Origin: Bacteroidetes Order II. bacterium | GTDB lineage: Bacteria; Bacteroidota; Rhodothermia; Rhodothermales; UBA2364 | NCBI GenBank assembly: GCA_016788705.1 | Contig: JAEUSQ010000031.1 | Span: 1-47,547, forward strand | Direction of reading: 5' to 3' | Length of the DNA stretch: 47,547 bases | Translations under genes and position numbers: made by a program | Notes under the pieces: model-generated | What the model saw: the letters and a program-made list of their open reading frames with translations, nothing else | Told to the model about the DNA's origin: nothing | Database searches by the model: none | Shown: piece after piece, positions 3,634 to 37,602 of the stretch | How positions within the stretch are numbered: the stretch's first letter is position 1 | Layout of the letters: every line of letters begins with the position of its first letter

Positions 3634-5859
3634 TTAACGTTCAAATTTGTAAACCTGATTCCCAATCCGCACAATAGTGGTACGGTCTAAGTTTAGATAT
3701 TGGTTCACTTCCGGAGTTTGACTTCGCGTAAAAGCAAAGTATTCCTCCGTCATCAACTTAATGACTTTGGCGGTTTTTTCTTCCTCAGCCGTAATTTCGC
3801 CCTCTATCCAGTTGTTATTACGCAGGTAGAAGGTTTTTGTCCCCACTTGTTGCAACGTCTCTTTTTCTTCTTCCACCTTGGGCGGCTCGGAAGCCACTCC
3901 CCCCCTATTGCGGGCAGAAGGCATCACTGGATTACGTTTGGCCATGGGTTTATTGGTCACCACCACCGCCTGATTCATCATGTCTTGCTTGGCCGAGCGC
4001 TGGGCATTCGCATAAGCACCTGATGTCTCATTGAGGTCTTCGGTGGCAGAATAGGCACGTTGCATATTCGCCGAAGTGGCCCGCAAGTCCACGTCTTCAT
4101 CGGCCAAAAAACTGGTATAAGGGGTCAGAATGCCATGTTTTTTAGACAAACTCACCAACTCGTTTACCAATTCTTCGTTGCGGCCATTCAGGTCAATTTG
4201 GTCAATAATGGTTCCGATCCGACGTGTTGCCCAAAGTTTTTCCACATAACTATGGGCCGTGCCGTCGGAGGCTTGGGCCAAGTCTGCATCAAAGCGGAAG
4301 GTCTTTAATTCATCACCTACCTTTCCAGAGATACTCACCTTCGTTTTTCCGGACTTGTTGTAGCGGCCCACCCATACAATTTGCCCCCCTTCAAACAAGT
4401 CTGGCAGTACGCTCGGATACGAACGGTTAAGGTCGGTATGGCTCATCTCAATCCGAATGTTGGTCAGTAGAGGTGCAGTAATACCCGAATAGAACGCAGC
4501 GATTTTGGCTTCCAGATTATCTTCGAGGCTCACATACTCGCTTCTTCCGCCATTCCCATTTACCAAACGATCCAATAGCCGAGCATTGACATCCTCGCCC
4601 ACACCGAAGGCAAAAACCCGTGCCTGATGTCGGTTTCTACGGCGGGTATTTTCGGCAATTTGCATTTCGTTGGTATTACCAGCGGTTGGCAGCCCATCGG
4701 TTAGAAAAAGGACATAATTAGGCCGCTTTTCGTCTTGAATCTGCTGCATTGCTTTTTCGAGGGCACTATGAATATTGGTTCCTCCACCAGATTCTATCGC
4801 CTCGGTATAACGCAATGCTTCGCGGCGATTGTCTGCATTGTAGGGTTGCAATGCGGGCTTCCACGCACGGATGCTGTCATCATAATCCACAATATTAAAA
4901 TAATCCCCTTCGCGCAGGTTGTTCAGGACAAATTTCAGGGCTTCTTTGGCTTGTACCAATTTTTTCCCTTCCATAGAACCGGAACGGTCCAAGACAAACA
5001 AAACTGTTTTAGGCAATATCTTCCGGCTACGCGCTGTTTTTACGTCTGGCGTAGCGAGCAACATAAAATAGCCATCTTGTTGATCATCTGGACGAAAGCT
5101 CAAAACAGTCGCACCCACTTCGCCCGCCTCCGCCGTAAAGGAGAGTTTAAAGTCACGCTCGCGGCGAACATTGGTTTCCTCGAACGAGACAATGGCTTCG
5201 CGGTTAGAAGGACGGTCTATCTGCAGTTGGTCGGTTGGGCTGTAAAGGGTCTTCAAGGGTTCCGTAGAGACAATCCGTCCTTTAAAAACCACTTTCCCTA
5301 TACGACCGCCTGAAAATTTTTGTGTTCCAAATGGATAACTAAAGGAGACAACCCCTTTTTCTTTGGTACAAAGTTGGGTGTATTTAAGCGTAATGGTACG
5401 GTCTTCGCCAGGAGGAATTGGGAAAATACTGGTCTTAAACAAGCCATAGCCCGCATATTCCATCAAAGCCGGATCTTTTTTTCGGCGGACAATTTCTTCA
5501 TAAATACCACGTGCCTCCTCTTTGGGCAATAAGCGGCCAGGCATTTCTTTTCCATTGACCATTAAGGTGAAGCTTTGTACCGAGCCCCCATCTGGCAGAG
5601 GAAACAGCAGTTCCACTTCCATCACCCGATGACTTGGGTTGTGAATGGTTTGAGACACTTGGGTTTCGGCAACCTGATCCCGGAACTGCGTATTTACCAC
5701 AATAGATTTAACCTCGTATGGCCGCCAGGCGGCATCTGGCTTTACCATTGCGGCACGCGACATTGGGGCATCATTGTTTTCGATAGCAATCTGCGCCCGA
5801 GTACCCATAGGAAACGCAATGGCACATAGAATAAAAAGGTTTAGAAATGAGTTTTTCAT
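3634..5859 (-). CDS. Secreted VIT and von Willebrand factor type A domain protein
   Basis: 741 residues with a signal peptide (hydrophobic to about residue 22, ending TRAQ). An N-terminal VIT domain spans about 45-165, with the pattern TIHNPSHRVMEVELLFPLPD and later PPGEDRTITLKY. A VWA domain spans about 285-460. The metal-ion-dependent adhesion site is complete: Asp291-Ser293-Ser295 (DRSGSM), Thr361 (GGGTNI) and Asp388 (TDGLPT). This VIT-VWA layout is that of inter-alpha-trypsin inhibitor heavy chains and their bacterial relatives, which bind partners through the metal site. The C-terminal ~140 residues are charged and low complexity, then end in a short domain (TFYLRNNNWIEGE). Role unknown, probably periplasmic or surface adhesion. 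It has its own terminator. Confidence 0.88.
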   Translation of the reverse strand: MKNSFLNLFILCAIAFPMGTRAQIAIENNDAPMSRAAMVKPDAAWRPYEVKSIVVNTQFRDQVAETQVSQTIHNPSHRVMEVELLFPLPDGGSVQSFTLMVNGKEMPGRLLPKEEARGIYEEIVRRKKDPALMEYAGYGLFKTSIFPIPPGEDRTITLKYTQLCTKEKGVVSFSYPFGTQKFSGGRIGKVVFKGRIVSTEPLKTLYSPTDQLQIDRPSNREAIVSFEETNVRRERDFKLSFTAEAGEVGATVLSFRPDDQQDGYFMLLATPDVKTARSRKILPKTVLFVLDRSGSMEGKKLVQAKEALKFVLNNLREGDYFNIVDYDDSIRAWKPALQPYNADNRREALRYTEAIESGGGTNIHSALEKAMQQIQDEKRPNYVLFLTDGLPTAGNTNEMQIAENTRRRNRHQARVFAFGVGEDVNARLLDRLVNGNGGRSEYVSLEDNLEAKIAAFYSGITAPLLTNIRIEMSHTDLNRSYPSVLPDLFEGGQIVWVGRYNKSGKTKVSISGKVGDELKTFRFDADLAQASDGTAHSYVEKLWATRRIGTIIDQIDLNGRNEELVNELVSLSKKHGILTPYTSFLADEDVDLRATSANMQRAYSATEDLNETSGAYANAQRSAKQDMMNQAVVVTNKPMAKRNPVMPSARNRGGVASEPPKVEEEKETLQQVGTKTFYLRNNNWIEGEITAEEEKTAKVIKLMTEEYFAFTRSQTPEVNQYLNLDRTTIVRIGNQVYKFER

Positions 5860-9534: not shown

Positions 9535-10569
9535 TTATCCACCTTCTCCTTCGCTATAAGGTATATCGTCCGAAGCCACATCGGCCTGCCGCCAATCTCG
9601 GACAATACTCGACGTAAAATAGAAGCCTACGATCATGCCTACGAGGTAGGTGAATTGGTCTAAGAGGGTACCTATTTGAATTTGACTACTTTCCAGGGTA
9701 TCGGTAGCGGTTTTGGCTCCGATTAATAAGAAATAGACCAAAATAAAGGACGTTGTAATGGCCTTTCTGTATTCGCCTTTGTCTAAGTCCGATGAATTTG
9801 AAAGCCGATTAGAGGCATAAAGTGTTGTGAAAAAGGCGATGACACCTGTTCCGGTGATGGCCAGTGCAAGGCTATAATAGTTGAGGGTCAGATAGGCATA
9901 TACCACGAGTGCCGCAATTCCGACAACTCCAGCCATAGAAATCATTCCGGCATAGAGCCAGCTATTTTGATTCCGCCAACCAGGATCTATGGCTTCGTTG
10001 ACGAGTTCGGCTTCGGTCTGATACACCACATTGGGCAAAGCATAGGGCTTTCCAAAAGGTCCAGAGGGGACATTTACGGGAATGGACGTTTCTGCGACGG
10101 GCGCAGTCGGATTGCCTGTGTTATAATTTACGGCATCGGGATACTCGTTCAAGTCCACATCGGGTCCTGAATTCGGAGACGGGTACGAAGGCACTGTGGT
10201 GTTTGTTGGCATAGGAGTTTCGGGTAACGCGTTTGAGGGAAAAGGAACCGGAATTTCTGAAGGCGCGACAACGGTTTGCGGGAGTTCCGGCGGGACTGGA
10301 GGAACCGTCGTGGTGAGCGAAGGAGCATCCGCGAACGTGTTAGAAGTCCAAGTATCGGGCATAAGGGGTGGCAATACCTCTTGCTGTTGTGCCTCATCCA
10401 ATGTAAGGGATTCACTTGGGCGTGGGAATAAATCCGCCAGTTCTTGGAGTGTATCTGGTGGAGCCGGAAGGGCATGTGGAGGTATGGGAGGAGGGGCCTG
10501 CTCTTCTTTTAGTGAGGCAGCCAAGGCATCCCCAAGACGATATATGGAATGGTGTACAAACTTTGCCAT
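9535..10569 (-). CDS. Proline-rich membrane protein, unknown function
   Basis: I start it at the ATG at 10569 (344 residues, MAKFVHHSIYRLGDALAASL); an in-frame extension to 10668 is possible. Residues about 25-185 are proline-, threonine- and serine-rich with no recognisable fold and are probably a disordered cytoplasmic or periplasmic arm. A short folded stretch (VVYQTEAELVNEAIDPGWR) follows. Five or so hydrophobic helices then run from about 205 to 325, ending in an acidic tail (DDIPYSEGEGG). It is transcribed divergently from the kinase-like gene at 10784 and has its own terminator. No family recognised. Confidence 0.7.
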   Translation of the reverse strand: MAKFVHHSIYRLGDALAASLKEEQAPPPIPPHALPAPPDTLQELADLFPRPSESLTLDEAQQQEVLPPLMPDTWTSNTFADAPSLTTTVPPVPPELPQTVVAPSEIPVPFPSNALPETPMPTNTTVPSYPSPNSGPDVDLNEYPDAVNYNTGNPTAPVAETSIPVNVPSGPFGKPYALPNVVYQTEAELVNEAIDPGWRNQNSWLYAGMISMAGVVGIAALVVYAYLTLNYYSLALAITGTGVIAFFTTLYASNRLSNSSDLDKGEYRKAITTSFILVYFLLIGAKTATDTLESSQIQIGTLLDQFTYLVGMIVGFYFTSSIVRDWRQADVASDDIPYSEGEGG

Positions 10570-10783
10570 GGAGGTCTGCGGGTTTTCGGATGAAGTTTGT
10601 GCTCCGAAAAATTCAGAAGGCCGGATTAATTGCCCCCATAAACTATGAAATCCCACATCAAAGAACAATCATCCAGAAAAAAACAATCTGGTAGCCTTTC
10701 TCCCTTACTTGGCAAATGGTTCAAGCGTTTGTATTTTGAACCACTGAACCACCTACCCTCTGCATTTGTTGAAAAAACGTTTT

Positions 10784-12289
10784 ATGTTCGATTCGGTTTC
10801 GGAGTTGTGGACAGATCTACCCATCTTTCTCGCTTGTACGTTGTTTTTACTGGGTTTAGTGGGAATAGGTGAATGGCTAAATGCCCGCCTACACGTTTCG
10901 GCGGAGGTGACCCGTCGGTTGATTCATGCGTTTACAGGTTTGTTTGTTACGCTTTCCCCCTTGCTTTTTGCCAGTCCATTCTGGATTTATGTATTGGCGC
11001 TTATATTTATGGTTGCCAATTTTGTCGCAATCCAACATCACTGGTTTCAGGGAATGCATGGCATCTCTCGAAAAAGTTGGGGCACCGTCACGTTTCCATT
11101 GGCACTGCTCTTTGCATTGGTCACCAGTTGGAGCCCAGATGAAGGACGGATATTTGCCATCCAATGCACGTTTTTGGTACTTTCCTTTTCCGATCCACTC
11201 GCCTCTTGGGTAGGGATGAGCGTACCGAAACCGATAGTGTATCAGGTTGGCGGTTCCAAAAAATCCGTGGCGGGGTCGGTCGCATTTGCAGTTTCTGCTT
11301 TTTTATTGGTACTGCTCGGGCTATACCTGAATGGTTTTGATTTGCGCTGGGGCTGGGATACGATCGTATTGGCCGCTTTTACATCGGCAGTTGCGGCGAC
11401 CCTTGCCGAGGCATTGGGCGGAGACGGTTGGGATAACTTTTTTATGGTTGTCGCAATTCTGACAGCCCTTGTTTTCGTGAATCATCATCATGGTTTGGCC
11501 TATTACTTGGCCTTTTCCGTATTGGTAGGAATCGGTTTTGCCTTTTTGGCTTGGCGTTTAACGTTTTTAGACCTATCGGGTGCGTTTGCGGTGGCCTTGC
11601 TTGGGATGACGGTTTTTGGGCTGGGGGAATGGAAATGGAGTTTACCCGGCCTCACGTTTTTTGTACTGTCGAGTATCTTATCCAAATTGGGTAAGAAGCG
11701 AAAAGCAGCCCTCGAAGGAAAAAACGAAAAAACTTCGCGGCGGGATGCGGGCCAAGTGTATGCTAATGGCGGGTTTGCTTGGGCGATGCTGGTGCTATAC
11801 GTGTTTTTCCAGCATGAAGCCTTTTATTGGGCTTTTGTGGCTTCGTTTGCCGCTGCCGCTGCCGACACTTGGGGGACCGAAATCGGGGGCTATTTTCAGG
11901 GGAAGACTTGGCAGTTGCCTGCGTTTCGCCCAGTGCCCCCCGGCGTTTCCGGCGGTATTTCGGTGTCTGGAACCATCGGAGCGTTTTTGGGGTCAGGGGT
12001 GGTTTGGTTGGCGGGGGCGGCCTTTTTGGGCGACGTTTGGGTCTGGAAAGGAGCCTTTGTAATCGTGGGTGCTGGTATGGTGTCCATGTTTCTGGATAGC
12101 ATCCTCGGTGGCACGGTTCAGGCGCAATATATGGATGCATCTGGTGTGGTGGTGGAACGGCGCTATAGTGGTTTGGTAGAAAACCGTCTCATTGCCGGAT
12201 ACCGTTGGGTCAATAACGACCGTGTCAATCTTGCAAATACCTTTTTAGGTGGAATATTAGGCGGTTTGTGCTATCTTGGGCTATCATGA
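10784..12289 (+). CDS. Fusion of dolichol/phytol kinase-like domain and DUF92 (VTE6-like) domain
   Basis: 501 residues from the ATG at 10784 (a TTG at 10766 would add six). The N-terminal half (about 20-240) is a polytopic SEC59/VTE5-type CTP-dependent polyprenol kinase domain: EVTRRLIHAFTGLFV, SFSDPLASWVG and AEALGGDGWDNFFM. The C-terminal half (about 250-500) is DUF92: SGAFAVALLGMTVFG, RDAGQVYANGGFAW, AAAADTWGTEIGG and GGTVQAQYMD. Plant and cyanobacterial DUF92 proteins (VTE6) phosphorylate phytyl phosphate, and VTE5 makes that phosphate from phytol. The fusion could therefore carry out both steps on an isoprenoid alcohol, giving a diphosphate. The substrate here is inferred; a non-phototroph might salvage farnesol or geranylgeraniol for quinones or carotenoids. 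Confidence 0.82.
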   Translation: MFDSVSELWTDLPIFLACTLFLLGLVGIGEWLNARLHVSAEVTRRLIHAFTGLFVTLSPLLFASPFWIYVLALIFMVANFVAIQHHWFQGMHGISRKSWGTVTFPLALLFALVTSWSPDEGRIFAIQCTFLVLSFSDPLASWVGMSVPKPIVYQVGGSKKSVAGSVAFAVSAFLLVLLGLYLNGFDLRWGWDTIVLAAFTSAVAATLAEALGGDGWDNFFMVVAILTALVFVNHHHGLAYYLAFSVLVGIGFAFLAWRLTFLDLSGAFAVALLGMTVFGLGEWKWSLPGLTFFVLSSILSKLGKKRKAALEGKNEKTSRRDAGQVYANGGFAWAMLVLYVFFQHEAFYWAFVASFAAAAADTWGTEIGGYFQGKTWQLPAFRPVPPGVSGGISVSGTIGAFLGSGVVWLAGAAFLGDVWVWKGAFVIVGAGMVSMFLDSILGGTVQAQYMDASGVVVERRYSGLVENRLIAGYRWVNNDRVNLANTFLGGILGGLCYLGLS

Positions 12290-12365: not shown

Positions 12366-13700
12366 ATGGCTTGGTACAAACAATTACATTGGCAAATTAT
12401 TCTGGGGCTGCTTCTGGGCTTGGTTTATGGTGTGGTCGCAGCCACCAATGGTTTTCAGCAATTCACTACCGATTGGATCACCCCGTTCGGTACTATTTTC
12501 ATTAACCTCCTCAAACTGATCGCTGTTCCACTGGTTTTGGCTTCCTTGATTATGGGGGTGGCTTCTCTGGCAGACATCCGGAAGTTAGGCCGTATTGGAG
12601 GGAAAACCTTGGGGCTTTATATTCTGACAACGGCCATTGCCATTGCCATTGGTCTGCTGTTTGCGAATCTTTTGCAACCAGGTCATCAGGTTCCGCCCGA
12701 AATGCGTGAATCGCTGATGGCTTCGTATGCCGACAATGTACAAACCAGCAAAGATGTTGCCGCTTCCGTGGGGCAACGCGGCCCGCTTCAAATCCTTATT
12801 GATATGGTTCCGGACAATATTTTTAAGGCCGGAGCAGACAACCGCAACATGCTTCAAATTGTCTTCTTTGCTATTTTCTTTGGGATTGGGCTTTTGCAGA
12901 TTCCCAAAGCCAAGGCCAAGCCTATATTAGATTTCTTTGACGGGCTAAATGACGTTGTAATTAGATTGGTGGACATCATCATGCTCATGGCGCCTTTGGG
13001 GGTATTTGCCCTCATGTCCAGTACCATCGTAAGTGTGGCGGGAGACGACCTCGGAAAATTACTTCAACTGCTGGGTGCTTTGGGCATCTATTGCCTAACG
13101 GTTGTAGGCGGACTCATCATCCACACGGCTGTGGTGTACCCATCCTTTTTATATGGCCTGAGCCGTTACAATATCAAAAAGTTTTTTCAGGCCATTTCCC
13201 GTGCCCAACTGGTAGGCTTTTCCACCAGTTCGAGTGGAGCCACCCTCCCGGTAACAATGGAGTGCGCCGAAGAAAAAATTGGCGCATCCAAAGAAATTTC
13301 ATCGTTTGTCTTGCCATTAGGGGCAACGATTAATATGGATGGGACAGCCCTGTATCAAGGGGTTGCAACCGTCTTTATTGCACAGGCATTAGGCATGGAC
13401 CTGAGTTTTTCCGCACAGCTGAATGTCCTATTACTTGCCGTAATGGCCTCCATTGGCACAGCAGCAGTGCCGGGAGCTGGGGTTATTATGCTCATCATCA
13501 TCTTGGAATCGGTAGGGGTTCCAAGCGCCGGAATTGCCCTCATTTTAGGGGTAGATCGGATTTTGGATATGCTTCGGACCGTAACCAACATTACGGGTGA
13601 TCTGATGGTCTGTACGGTAATTGCCAAGTCCGAGGGGCAGTTACACGAAGTAAATCCGGACCCACATGCCGATGATGTTCGCCTAACAGCAGCAGAATAA
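12366..13700 (+). CDS. Dicarboxylate/amino acid:cation symporter (DAACS family)
   Basis: 444 residues, the usual length for the GltP/DctA/GltT family of sodium- or proton-coupled glutamate/aspartate or C4-dicarboxylate carriers. Both re-entrant hairpin signatures are present: the serine-rich FSTSSSGATLPVTMEC in HP1, and LPLGATINMDGTALYQG with the NMDGT cation-binding motif in TM7. HP2 shows GTAAVPGAGVIML, and the last helix has ILGVDRILDMLRTVTNITGD. The chain starts MAWYKQLHWQIILGLLLG, a typical family start. Whether it carries glutamate or dicarboxylates cannot be settled by eye. A strong terminator follows the gene. Confidence 0.94.
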   Translation: MAWYKQLHWQIILGLLLGLVYGVVAATNGFQQFTTDWITPFGTIFINLLKLIAVPLVLASLIMGVASLADIRKLGRIGGKTLGLYILTTAIAIAIGLLFANLLQPGHQVPPEMRESLMASYADNVQTSKDVAASVGQRGPLQILIDMVPDNIFKAGADNRNMLQIVFFAIFFGIGLLQIPKAKAKPILDFFDGLNDVVIRLVDIIMLMAPLGVFALMSSTIVSVAGDDLGKLLQLLGALGIYCLTVVGGLIIHTAVVYPSFLYGLSRYNIKKFFQAISRAQLVGFSTSSSGATLPVTMECAEEKIGASKEISSFVLPLGATINMDGTALYQGVATVFIAQALGMDLSFSAQLNVLLLAVMASIGTAAVPGAGVIMLIIILESVGVPSAGIALILGVDRILDMLRTVTNITGDLMVCTVIAKSEGQLHEVNPDPHADDVRLTAAE

Positions 13701-13742
13701 TGGACCACCTCATTAATTTTTGATTCTGAACGATACTTCTGG

Positions 13743-13792
13743 GTCTTCGGGTGCGTTGTTAGAGATGTCTGCAACCCACCCGAAGACTTTTT
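13743..13792 (+). terminator. Rho-independent terminator after the symporter gene
   Basis: An 11-bp perfect stem, GTCTTCGGGTG (13743-13753) with CACCCGAAGAC (13777-13787), continues inward as GTTG/CAAC across a C-C mismatch. It is followed by TTTTT (13788-13792). Confidence 0.92.
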
Positions 13793-13804
13793 GATAACAA
13801 ACAG

Positions 13805-15322
13805 ATGCTCTTGATATACAGACGGATTTTTTTGTGGCTTTTGCTGGCCTGTACATCGGTCATGGCCCAATCTAAGCGCGATCTTCCCATCACCCACGCG
13901 CTCAAACAAGGTCGAGAAGCCTTTTTTGCCTTTCGCATCAACCAAGCCACGCAGCAATTCCGACAGGTGATCCAAAACGACAAAGACCCGGTGAACCAAG
14001 CAATGGCACAGTACCATTTATCGGCAATGGCGGTCTGGCAGTTTGGTTTTGGCCAAACAACAGCGGGGCTTAATGAATTCAAAACACAGAATGCGGCACT
14101 GAATACGGCGTTACGCTATGTGAACGATCCGTTATGGCGTCGGTTTTTGACAGCAGAGTCGGCCATGCACCGGGCCATTGTGGGGGTTTTGCGGAACGAT
14201 ATGCTTGGAGCTGCAATGTCTGGACGGGAAGCCTACAACAATTATGTATGGTGCATAGAACAAGATCCATATTTTGAAGAAGCCTATAAAGGCATGGGAT
14301 TGATGCAAGTGCTGATAGGCTCTGCACCCAGAGCCTATCAAGGGCTTCTGGGTTTTCTGGGGTATCGGGGTACAGTACAAGATGGCCTAAATCACTTAGA
14401 ACGGGCCATTAAAAAAGCTAAGTGGGTACAGGAAGAAGCCGCGATTTATTTTGCACTGAGCGACGAAATACTGAACCAAAATGAACGGAATGGCATCCAG
14501 AAGCTGAGCGAGTTGCAAAAAGCATATCCACAAAGTCCGTTATTCAATTTTTTATATGGTTATGCCCTCCGTAATAAGTTTAAGGCACGCGAGGCCCTGC
14601 CCTATTTGGAAGCCGCCGCACGATCCGGTAAAAAAAGCGAAACGGTTTCGCCTGCCATCTTTTTGTTTTATCTAGGAGAGCTCTATTTCCGGCTGAATCA
14701 ATACGACGAAGCTATTCGGGACTTTACACGGTTTACACAGGAATTTGAGGGGACAACCCTTGTTGGACAAGCATATTTCAAAATGGGTCAAGCCTTGGAA
14801 ATGGGGGGAGACCGCACAGCCGCCGTAGCGATGTACCAAAAGGTGAAAGCCGGATTTGCCTATGACATGGATGAATTTGCCCTCCGGCAGGCGGCACTGC
14901 GTATAGAAACGCCAATGACTCCTGTGGAGAAGCAATTACTACGCCTGCAAAATGCTTCGGATGCGGGCGATTATGCCTTTGTTCTCACGGAAGTGGAAAA
15001 CATTTTGTCTCAAACCACAATCTCGTCGGTCAACCTCGCAGAAGCACACTACCGAAAAGGGTTGGCCCTTCAAAAGGCTCAACGCTACGAAGAAGCGATT
15101 GTTTTTTATGCTCGGGCAGTACAAAATCCTGGAGACCCACTTGCCAAATGGGGGCCTTATAGCCAACTCTATATTGGTGAGTGCTACGAAGCCCTCCAAC
15201 AACCAGAAAATGCCATTCTTGCTTATCGGAAAGCCCTGATGTATCGGGAAAAATTTGATTATCACAAGGGCTTAGAACAACGGGCAAAAACGGCATTAAG
15301 CCGATTAAAAACGGGAAATTAA
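13805..15322 (+). CDS. Secreted tetratricopeptide repeat protein
   Basis: 505 residues with a signal peptide (MLLIYRRIFLWLLLACTSVMAQ). The chain is helical throughout, with TPR-like pairs from about residue 30 to the end. Examples are FRINQATQQFRQVIQNDKDP, ALPYLEAAARSGKKSE, YFRLNQYDEAIRDFTRFTQE and KGLALQKAQRYEEAIVFYAR. The segment ALRYVNDPLWRRFLTAESAM with the following GREAYNNYVWCIEQDPYFEE resembles a conserved N-terminal block of Bacteroidota TPR proteins whose function is not known. The gene runs head-on into the ATPase gene at 15319, and the two stop codons share a TTAA. Confidence 0.82.
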   Translation: MLLIYRRIFLWLLLACTSVMAQSKRDLPITHALKQGREAFFAFRINQATQQFRQVIQNDKDPVNQAMAQYHLSAMAVWQFGFGQTTAGLNEFKTQNAALNTALRYVNDPLWRRFLTAESAMHRAIVGVLRNDMLGAAMSGREAYNNYVWCIEQDPYFEEAYKGMGLMQVLIGSAPRAYQGLLGFLGYRGTVQDGLNHLERAIKKAKWVQEEAAIYFALSDEILNQNERNGIQKLSELQKAYPQSPLFNFLYGYALRNKFKAREALPYLEAAARSGKKSETVSPAIFLFYLGELYFRLNQYDEAIRDFTRFTQEFEGTTLVGQAYFKMGQALEMGGDRTAAVAMYQKVKAGFAYDMDEFALRQAALRIETPMTPVEKQLLRLQNASDAGDYAFVLTEVENILSQTTISSVNLAEAHYRKGLALQKAQRYEEAIVFYARAVQNPGDPLAKWGPYSQLYIGECYEALQQPENAILAYRKALMYREKFDYHKGLEQRAKTALSRLKTGN

Positions 15323-35724: not shown

Positions 35725-37602
35725 TTAGAGTACACCTTTGGTGCTGGGTAAAATGTCCATCCGGGTAGGGTCTCGGCGGACGGCCATCCGGATGGCTTTG
35801 GCAAATGCCTTAAAAACCGACTCAATCAGGTGGTGGTCATTATCAGCCTTTGCCTGTATGTTGAGGTTGCACTTGGCGTTGTCGCAGAAAGATTTAAAAA
35901 AGTGGTACCACATCTCGGTTGGTACATCGCCCACCCGTTCGCGGGTAAAGGGGACGTCCCAGACCAACCAAGGCCGTCCGGAAAAATCAAGGGCTACTTG
36001 TGCCAATGCTTCATCCATTGGCAATAAAAAACCATATCGTTCGATGCCGCGTTTATCCCCCAGAGCCTCCCAAAACGCCGTTCCGAGGGCCAATGCGGTG
36101 TCTTCTACGGTGTGATGCTCGTCTATGTGGAGGTCGCCTCGTACCAAAACCGAGAGGTCGCAACCGCCATGCCGCGCCAATTGCTCCAACATATGGTCAA
36201 AAAAGCCCAACCCTGTGTGAAGGTCGGCTTTTCCGGTTCCGTCTAAGTTCAGGTGAATACGGATGTCCGTCTCGTTGGTGGTGCGTTGTACGTGAGCGGT
36301 TCGGTGGGTTGGTTCGGGGGCGGGTAATACCGCCAGACGGTGGGTTACGGCCCATTGGTGCGCCTCCAAGCCTTCGGCAGCCGCCATAGTCTCTACGGTA
36401 GGACCGATGTTTTGTAAACCCTCCGGCGTAAGGTGTTGAAAGGTGACTTTTCGTACAAAGGTATCTAAGGAAACCCCTGCATACATCCGTGCAGAGCCAT
36501 TGGTCGGAAGGGTATGGTTGGTTCCTGAAGCATAGTCACCCACCGATTCTGGTGTCCAATGTCCCAAAAAAACCGATCCCGCATTGGCCACTTGGTCGGC
36601 GAGGGCATATGGGTGGTCGGTGGCCAGAATCAGGTGTTCGGGTGCATAAGCATTGAGCAACTTCATTGCTTCGGCTTCGGTTTGCACTTGGATCAGCAGG
36701 CTGTTTTCCAACGAGGCGGCAGCTATTTCGCGTCGGGGCAAGGTGGCCAACTGTGCCCGCACCTCGTGTTCTATTTGTTCTATCATAGAAGCAGAGGTGG
36801 AAACGAGTAGGACTTGGCTATCGGCTCCGTGTTCTGCCTGTGAGAGGAGGTCTGCGGCCACAAACACCGGATGGGCGGTCTCGTCTGCGTAAACGGCCAC
36901 TTCCGAGGGGCCAGCAGGCATATCTATCGCCACGCCTTCTTGTTGGATCAATTGCTTGGCGGCAGTAACAAAGGCATTCCCCGGTCCCAAAATTTTATAT
37001 ACCGCAGGGATGCTTTCCGTGCCGTATCCCATGGCGGCAATGGCCTGTGCACCGCCCACTTTATACACCTGACGAATGCCAATGAGTTGGGCAGTGAACA
37101 AAATGGCCGGATGTACCGATCCATCTTTTTGCGGAGGCGTACATAAAACAACCTCCCGACAACCCGCTAATTTTGCCGGAATCCCCAGCATCAATAAGGT
37201 GGAAAACAGCGGAGCCGTCCCACCCGGAATGTATAAACCCACCTTTTCGATTGGGAGCGACTTTCGCCAGCACCGAACACCGGGCATGGTTTCTACCTCG
37301 CGCACGTTCTCGGCCTGCGACGCATGGAACTTCCGAATATTGGCGTAGGCGGTTCGGATAGCCATTTGGAGGGCCGGAGAAACCGTAGCCGTGGATGCCG
37401 CAAACTCGGTATCTTGTACCGCCAATTCCTTTAGGGTAACGCCATCGAATTGTGCCGTGAAGGCCCGAAGTGCGGCATCGCCTTGCACACGAACAGCCTC
37501 CAATATGGGTGCAACCCGGTCGGTTAATTGTCCGACCGCCAATGCAGGTCTTGACAAAAGGGAAGGCCAGTCGGTTTGCGGAGGGTGAATAATTTTTTTC
37601 AT
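35725..37602 (-). CDS. HisD-HisB fusion: histidinol dehydrogenase and IGP dehydratase
   Basis: 625 residues in one uninterrupted frame. Residues 1-428 are a full histidinol dehydrogenase: [60 protein letters not shown], and the catalytic Glu322-His323 in [12 protein letters not shown] ~10-residue linker (about 428-437) follows. Residues 437-625 are a full imidazoleglycerol-phosphate dehydratase: [32 protein letters not shown] and [18 protein letters not shown] carry the manganese-binding histidine clusters. Both halves look active. In most gene orders hisC lies between hisD and hisB. Here it is missing and the two genes are joined. The dehydrogenase does the last two steps, the dehydratase the sixth. 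It lies between hisG (22 bp) and hisH (21 bp). Confidence 0.95.

Follow-up and report, generated by a model that had tools for sequence, protein, structure and literature searches.

We describe a single gene in the window (the whole stretch of 47,547 nucleotides that was analysed) whose product is predicted to be a CTP-dependent prenol and prenyl-phosphate kinase, and which would probably carry out both steps of isoprenoid-alcohol salvage in one polypeptide. The gene encodes a candidate membrane protein with two tandem kinase-like halves. In this scheme the N-terminal half would phosphorylate a short prenol with CTP as the donor, and the C-terminal half, of the VTE6 type, would attach a second phosphate, yielding a prenyl diphosphate for the prenyltransferases of the cell; the prenol may come from the breakdown of GGPP or FPP, or from outside. 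The kinase chemistry, CTP as the donor and the order of the steps are what we infer for the fused protein. Fusions of this kind are already known from archaea, and the bacterial members are added here.

Results

The fused protein

The gene lies on the forward strand (10784..12289) and is an open frame of 501 codons (501 residues) from the ATG at 10784 to the stop, with an in-frame TTG 18 bases 5' of the ATG. AlphaFold2, run on the whole protein with a 46-row alignment, gave a model with a mean pLDDT of 92.7 and a pTM of 0.91, a bundle of approximately 16 predicted helices. Searches of solved structures by sequence, both with the protein and with the alignment, found no credible relative, and Foldseek returned nothing for the whole model at E 0.001. 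The sequence-only reading had divided the protein into two domains. This division is upheld: the C-half is DUF92, and the N-half is tied by profile and fold comparisons to kinase-like paralogues and to CdsA.

The C-terminal half is a DUF92 domain

Residues 248–498 (11525..12277, forward strand) form a DUF92 / COG1836 / VTE6-type domain, according to PF01940, a separate structural model and VIA-align. Pfam places PF01940 (DUF92) at residues 249–489 with 202 bits against a cut-off of 27.5 (E 1.4e-59), confirming the earlier assignment of this half. The NCBIfam model TIGR00297, a hypothetical equivalog within DUF92, scores 103.8 bits and falls short of its cut-off of 205.85. VTE6 is, we take it, also a member of PF01940.

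The C-half folded alone gave a pLDDT of 90.7. Its best VIA-align row is CarS (5guf, Z 6.0, rmsd 3.9, 123 aligned residues), followed by CdsA (4q2g, Z 5.4; 4q2e, Z 5.2), with the first unrelated row at Z 4.7; by the tool's standards, Z values of this size are low. Foldseek found nothing for the C-half model at E 0.001. An hhalign comparison with CdsA reached a probability of 26%, pairing D361-T362 with the DT of CdsA and a glycine-serine loop with SPKKTWEG. The lysine in the turn of CdsA and of the N-half has no counterpart in the C-half.

The N-terminal half is probably of the dolichol/phytol-kinase type

Residues 10–246 (10811..11521, forward strand) are dolichol/phytol-kinase-like with a probable CTP-transferase fold, as judged from profile searches, hhalign and VIA-align. 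Pfam and NCBIfam gave no match to this half at E 1, and the cut-off of PF01148 (CTP_transf_1) was not reached. Each of 46 relatives was also scanned singly; DUF92 and TIGR00297 were the only models to recur in all of them, and none recurred for the N-half. Thus the domain search proposed for each half succeeded for the C-half and came back empty for the N-half.

The family connection was made by profile instead. A profile built from 26 N-halves had matches at E 0.01 in 198 of the 296 genomes sampled from the phylum, among both fused and standalone proteins; the standalone proteins, of ∼ 225–250 residues, come from other genomes and match at E 1e-16 to 1e-45, with further ones weaker. Three of the eight N-type proteins scanned by Pfam, all of them standalone, match PF01148 weakly (E 1.1e-4, 0.017 and 0.041), the best at 22.6 bits, just short of the cut-off of 24. 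Within the genome that holds the window, the next matches of the profile behind the fused gene are a frame of 205 codons on contig C34 (E 6e-5) and CdsA (E 4e-4).

An hhalign comparison of the N-half with 35 CdsA sequences gave probabilities of 76% (local) and 79% (global). In the alignment the D of DTAAYY falls opposite D137, the SPKKTWEG segment opposite K160, the E of DLVES opposite E209 and a D of LDRLD opposite D217. Ten unrelated neighbourhood families, two of them clear membrane proteins, served as controls; against them the N-half never exceeded 0.72%, and the C-half never exceeded 1.7%. With the whole model, the best VIA-align row was CdsA (4q2e_B, Z 8.8, rmsd 4.1, 168 aligned residues, model residues 24–236). 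Both this value and the 6.0 of the C-half are modest, and helical bundles can match by chance in such a range. The N-half is probably of the dolichol/phytol-kinase type, its SEC59/VTE5 link running via the standalone paralogues that touch PF01148. The proposed likeness to VTE5/SEC59 stands on these paralogues, on the profile and fold matches to CdsA and on the motif residues described below, but drew no Pfam or NCBIfam match.

Each half is thus similar to CTP-transferases at the level of profile and fold, modestly so for the C-half. Direct homology of the two halves was considered and set aside, as hhalign of the N-half against the C-half was negative (probability 0.1–0.3%). Within the one model both halves show the same order of elements: a helix ending near a D, a short β hairpin with a glycine-containing turn, two helices, and then D-N (N-half) or N-D-x-V-N (C-half) opening a helix. 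A shared fold is suggested by this order together with the separate matches of the halves to CdsA and CarS, and the protein looks like two distant members of the CTP-transferase fold in tandem.

Conserved residues and one-sided wear

The motif of SEC59/VTE5 (COG0170) kinases, as we take it to be, reads D ... K(S/T)xxG ... E ... DN. All its residues (D137, K160, G164, E209, D217 and N218) are present in the window protein and in 55–59 of 59 fused rows. D137 (11192..11194), which corresponds to the D of DTAAYY in the genome's CdsA, is a D in 57/59 fused and 24/24 standalone N-type rows. In K160-S161-V-A-G164 (11261..11275), equivalent to SPKKTWEG of CdsA, K160 is kept in 55/59 and G164 in 59/59 fused rows; the counts for E209, D217 and N218 (11408..11437) are 57/59, 58/59 and 58/59. 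The sequence-only reading had named a lack of conserved CTP-binding residues in the N-half as grounds for its rejection; residues of this type are there and nearly invariant, which speaks for that reading.

In the C-half, D361 and E366 of D361-T-W-G-T-E366 (11864..11881) and D438 of D438-S439 (12095..12100) occur in 59/59 fused and 14/14 DUF92-alone rows. N478 and N482 of N478-D-R-V-N482 (12215..12229), a segment placed by the helix order of the model as D217-N218 is in the N-half, occur in 59/59 fused rows. All six segments are on the forward strand. Across the 59 fused rows D361, E366, D438, N478 and N482 are therefore invariant, whereas the N-half positions vary in a few.

The same tendency appears among 72 distinct genes, i.e. 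the 75 rows of the alignment minus one row of each of the same-gene pairs L058/L013, L066/L050 and L081/L022 (removed by hand). The C-half core is intact in 72/72, and the N-half core is broken or unrecognizable in 5/72 (L050, L072, L196, L198 and L199), a figure that is not a population rate since 13 of the 75 rows were taken partly for their weak N-half scores. The proteins of genomes G085 and G095 (L198 and L199) are DUF92 proteins of fused length whose N-terminal 250 residues are missed by the N-half profile at E 10.

The reverse state also exists. In L133–L136 (family f15) and in L138 the N-half motifs are intact and those of DUF92 are missing from the C-part. At its start the f15 C-part is still DUF92-like (hhalign 84%); the start of the L138 C-part, taken alone, reaches 1.4%. 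L138 and the f15 proteins are related over most of their length. One genome, G052, holds both a fused gene with a broken N-half (L072) and a gene with an intact N-half (L138). This pairing is only suggestive. That decay of the N-half is always accompanied by an L138-type replacement was considered and rejected: G052 fits, but its congener G048, whose N-half is broken, lacks a gene of the L138 type. In G044 the N-half is intact. We have met no earlier description of this uneven wear of the two sites.

Distribution and history of the fusion

DUF92 occurs in 177 of the 296 genomes of the phylum sample, which is uneven, a large share coming from one family (f27). Among the matches listed (150 DUF92 places), 107 lie in frames with at least 484 codons, and the frames of the other 43 have 234–294 codons (hand count); two of these short frames are probably broken. 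Among 40 relatives, the window's own genome included, 24 match, and in 16 of these a single piece spans both halves (hand count). The fused arrangement is common in the phylum. Twenty genomes were searched with the N-half profile and five gave no match, all five having DUF92; thus the two steps would not be obligatorily linked.

A tree of 73 C-halves, 59 from fused and 14 from DUF92-alone rows, shows the alone state scattered among the fused, requiring nine changes compared with a shuffled mean of 13.0, and at least five of the nine are forced by starred branches. One of the rows counted as alone (L020) is truncated by a contig end and does not belong with them, and the count is nine with or without it; two short pieces of L149 were left out of this tree. 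In a tree of 89 N-type rows, a branch with support 93/86 sets the 59 fused N-halves apart together with one extra row, in which an N-half is joined to a C-part that lacks the DUF92 motifs. Distances between N-halves and between C-halves of the 59 fused proteins correlate with r 0.87, a value that none of 500 permutations reached. The correlation and the single-branch grouping of the N-halves argue that the halves were inherited together.

Fused and DUF92-only genes also occupy the same gene slots in related genomes. In one slot, with the same neighbours, L074, L075, L077, L079 and L080 are fused and L084, L085, L086 and L087 are DUF92-only; in another, L070 and L078 are fused and L082 is DUF92-only. 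Most simply, the halves were fused once in this sample and the N-half was then lost repeatedly; more than one fusion is less likely.

Among plasmid records there was a single DUF92 relative, and a standalone N-type protein had no relative there; no relative was found on viral contigs. The plasmid relative (L149, 8001-8672 of a Thermomicrobium roseum megaplasmid) has no gene in the PLSDB table and adjoins a chlorite dismutase family gene.

Gene neighbourhood

The gene is followed on the same strand by a sodium:dicarboxylate symporter family gene (12366..13700, forward strand, PF00375, E 1.2e-124), which we count as a conserved neighbour and not as part of the enzyme. In the window the symporter is followed by a TPR protein, both on the strand of the kinase gene (12366-15322). 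In 9 of the 43 neighbourhood rows, counting the window and also the DUF92-only L090, a member of the symporter family lies 3' of the kinase gene in the same orientation. An operon logic was looked for and rejected: no isoprenoid gene recurs within ∼ 5 kb in the 43 rows, where names were given partly by eye. The frequent neighbours are the symporter, TPR proteins and, by eye, TonB/TolQ-like genes. Gene calls in these neighbourhoods are crude (longest frame first), and the kinase frame was displaced in clustering at four loci. A few genomes of the order (L058, L060, L061, G007, G012 and G023) have CdsA at a distance of ∼ 4–7 kb from the DUF92 gene, and in L058, L060 and L061 it is ∼ 5–6 kb from the fused gene; the window shows no such placement.

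Divergent from the kinase gene is a gene for a 377-residue protein (9535-10668, reverse strand) without a Pfam match, with a proline-rich N-terminal half and, by eye, membrane helices; the cluster of this protein also adjoins the kinase gene in the relative L051. Elsewhere in the window, the reverse strand carries histidinol dehydrogenase and imidazoleglycerol-phosphate dehydratase, two histidine-pathway enzymes, in one frame of 625 residues (35725-37602), and a protein with VIT and von Willebrand A domains (3634-5859), an inter-α-trypsin-inhibitor-like arrangement in a bacterium.

Genome context and likely substrate

The genome has no match to Photo_RC (PF00124), which is consistent, for PF00124-type reaction centres, with the organism being a likely non-phototroph as first supposed. 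It encodes four UbiA-type proteins. Two of them score over the cut-offs for heme o synthase and MenA; the other two resemble a GGGP geranylgeranyltransferase and a decaprenyl-phosphate phosphoribosyltransferase, with scores below or near the cut-offs. None of the four is best assigned to homogentisate phytyltransferase or chlorophyll synthase. PcrB (GGGP synthase) is present over its cut-off, as is a phytoene/squalene synthase-family protein over its Pfam cut-off. Since these likely users take GGPP, FPP or longer chains and nothing is linked to phytyl diphosphate, geranylgeraniol or farnesol is favoured, and is more likely than phytol to be the usual substrate.

Discussion

The closest known system is archaeal. 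A SEC59–DUF92 fusion was described in 2015 (arCOG02245, e.g. Mbar_A3310 of Methanosarcina barkeri), and that paper relates archaeal DUF92 to pfam01148 by HHpred (97.57%), its authors inferring a relation to CTP-transferases and a kinase step in isoprenoid synthesis (PMC5898192). The domain order is the same, a dolichol-kinase-like N-domain followed by a DUF92 C-domain. In archaea uppS is given as a conserved neighbour (PMC5898192), whereas the neighbour clusters examined for the bacterial family hold no recurring isoprenoid gene. Titles and abstracts, among which few subscription papers are covered, yielded no description of a bacterial fusion of the SEC59–DUF92 type.

The two-step logic proposed here is that of VTE5 (phytol kinase) and VTE6 (phytyl-phosphate kinase, COG1836). 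These plant proteins have been characterized as two separate enzymes, and VTE5, FOLK and VTE6 prefer CTP, according to PMC9782597; here both halves are in one polypeptide, in a genome without PF00124-type genes. VTE6 has been suggested to phosphorylate phytol itself too (PMC5694494), and COG1836 was tabled in 2011 under 'phytol-phosphate metabolism' (PMC3223725). A likeness by activity is offered by Sulfolobus, for which geranylgeraniol kinase and GGP kinase activities, the same two as proposed for the fused protein, were reported in 1996 (by a title cited in PMC9385802). A prenol kinase of the malaria parasite was reported in 2024 (PMC10849223).

The natural variation in the family bears on which half matters most. 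The main conserved job could be that of the C-half, re-phosphorylating prenyl monophosphates in GGPP/FPP repair, with the prenol kinase half an optional accessory. The intact C-half motifs in all 72 genes, five of them with failed N-halves, are what this would predict, and DUF92-only genes share slots with fused ones and are scattered among them on the C-half tree; we nevertheless think it unlikely, as both halves are intact in most fused genes and the reverse group (L133–L136, L138) keeps the N-half motifs on a C-part lacking those of DUF92. The close co-inheritance of the halves (r 0.87) favours consecutive steps. It thereby speaks against an N-half that recycles long-chain polyprenol or diacylglycerol, in carrier-lipid or phospholipid metabolism, beside a C-half with a separate job. 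Dolichol-kinase-like proteins do fall within the N-half family, and CdsA lies near the DUF92 gene in the few genomes noted above. Undecaprenyl-diphosphate phosphatase would undo a second phosphate on a carrier polyprenol, and we regard this arrangement as very improbable.

We consider it very improbable that one or both halves are cytidylyltransferases, forming CDP-lipids in the manner of CdsA or CarS, for example for GGPP-derived ether lipids. CdsA and CarS (4q2e, 4q2g, 5guf), which make CDP-lipids, are the best fold matches of both halves (CarS and CdsA for the C-half, CdsA for the N-half), and their D, K, E and D positions align in the N-half, which itself does not match PF01148; PcrB and the GGGP geranylgeranyltransferase-like protein hint at ether lipids. 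Yet the genome has a separate CdsA, and the turn lysine shared by CdsA and the N-half is missing from the C-half. VTE6, the characterized relative of DUF92, is described as a kinase (PMC9782597), and archaeal CdsA-type enzymes occur beside DUF92 proteins (PMC5898192). We therefore keep to the reading as a two-step kinase. We speculate, tentatively and as a possibility short of likely, that two copies of the CTP-transferase fold were joined and their sites diverged, that the alcohol-kinase half decays in some lineages, which always retain the phosphate-kinase half, and the reverse happens in others, with the steps perhaps split between the G052 paralogues, and that the lasting function in the phylum is prenyl-phosphate repair while alcohol salvage is optional.

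In a 2022 review the farnesol/geranylgeraniol salvage pathway is called 'missing', with few kinases identified and the salvage genes known from plants and cyanobacteria only; the salvage kinase activities are not naturally found in E. coli (PMC9782597). If the family described here does carry out both steps, a large bacterial phylum would supply single-gene enzymes for assays in E. coli, and the natural half-dead variants would separate the two steps. It would also account for the presence of a 'vitamin E' gene in non-phototrophs.
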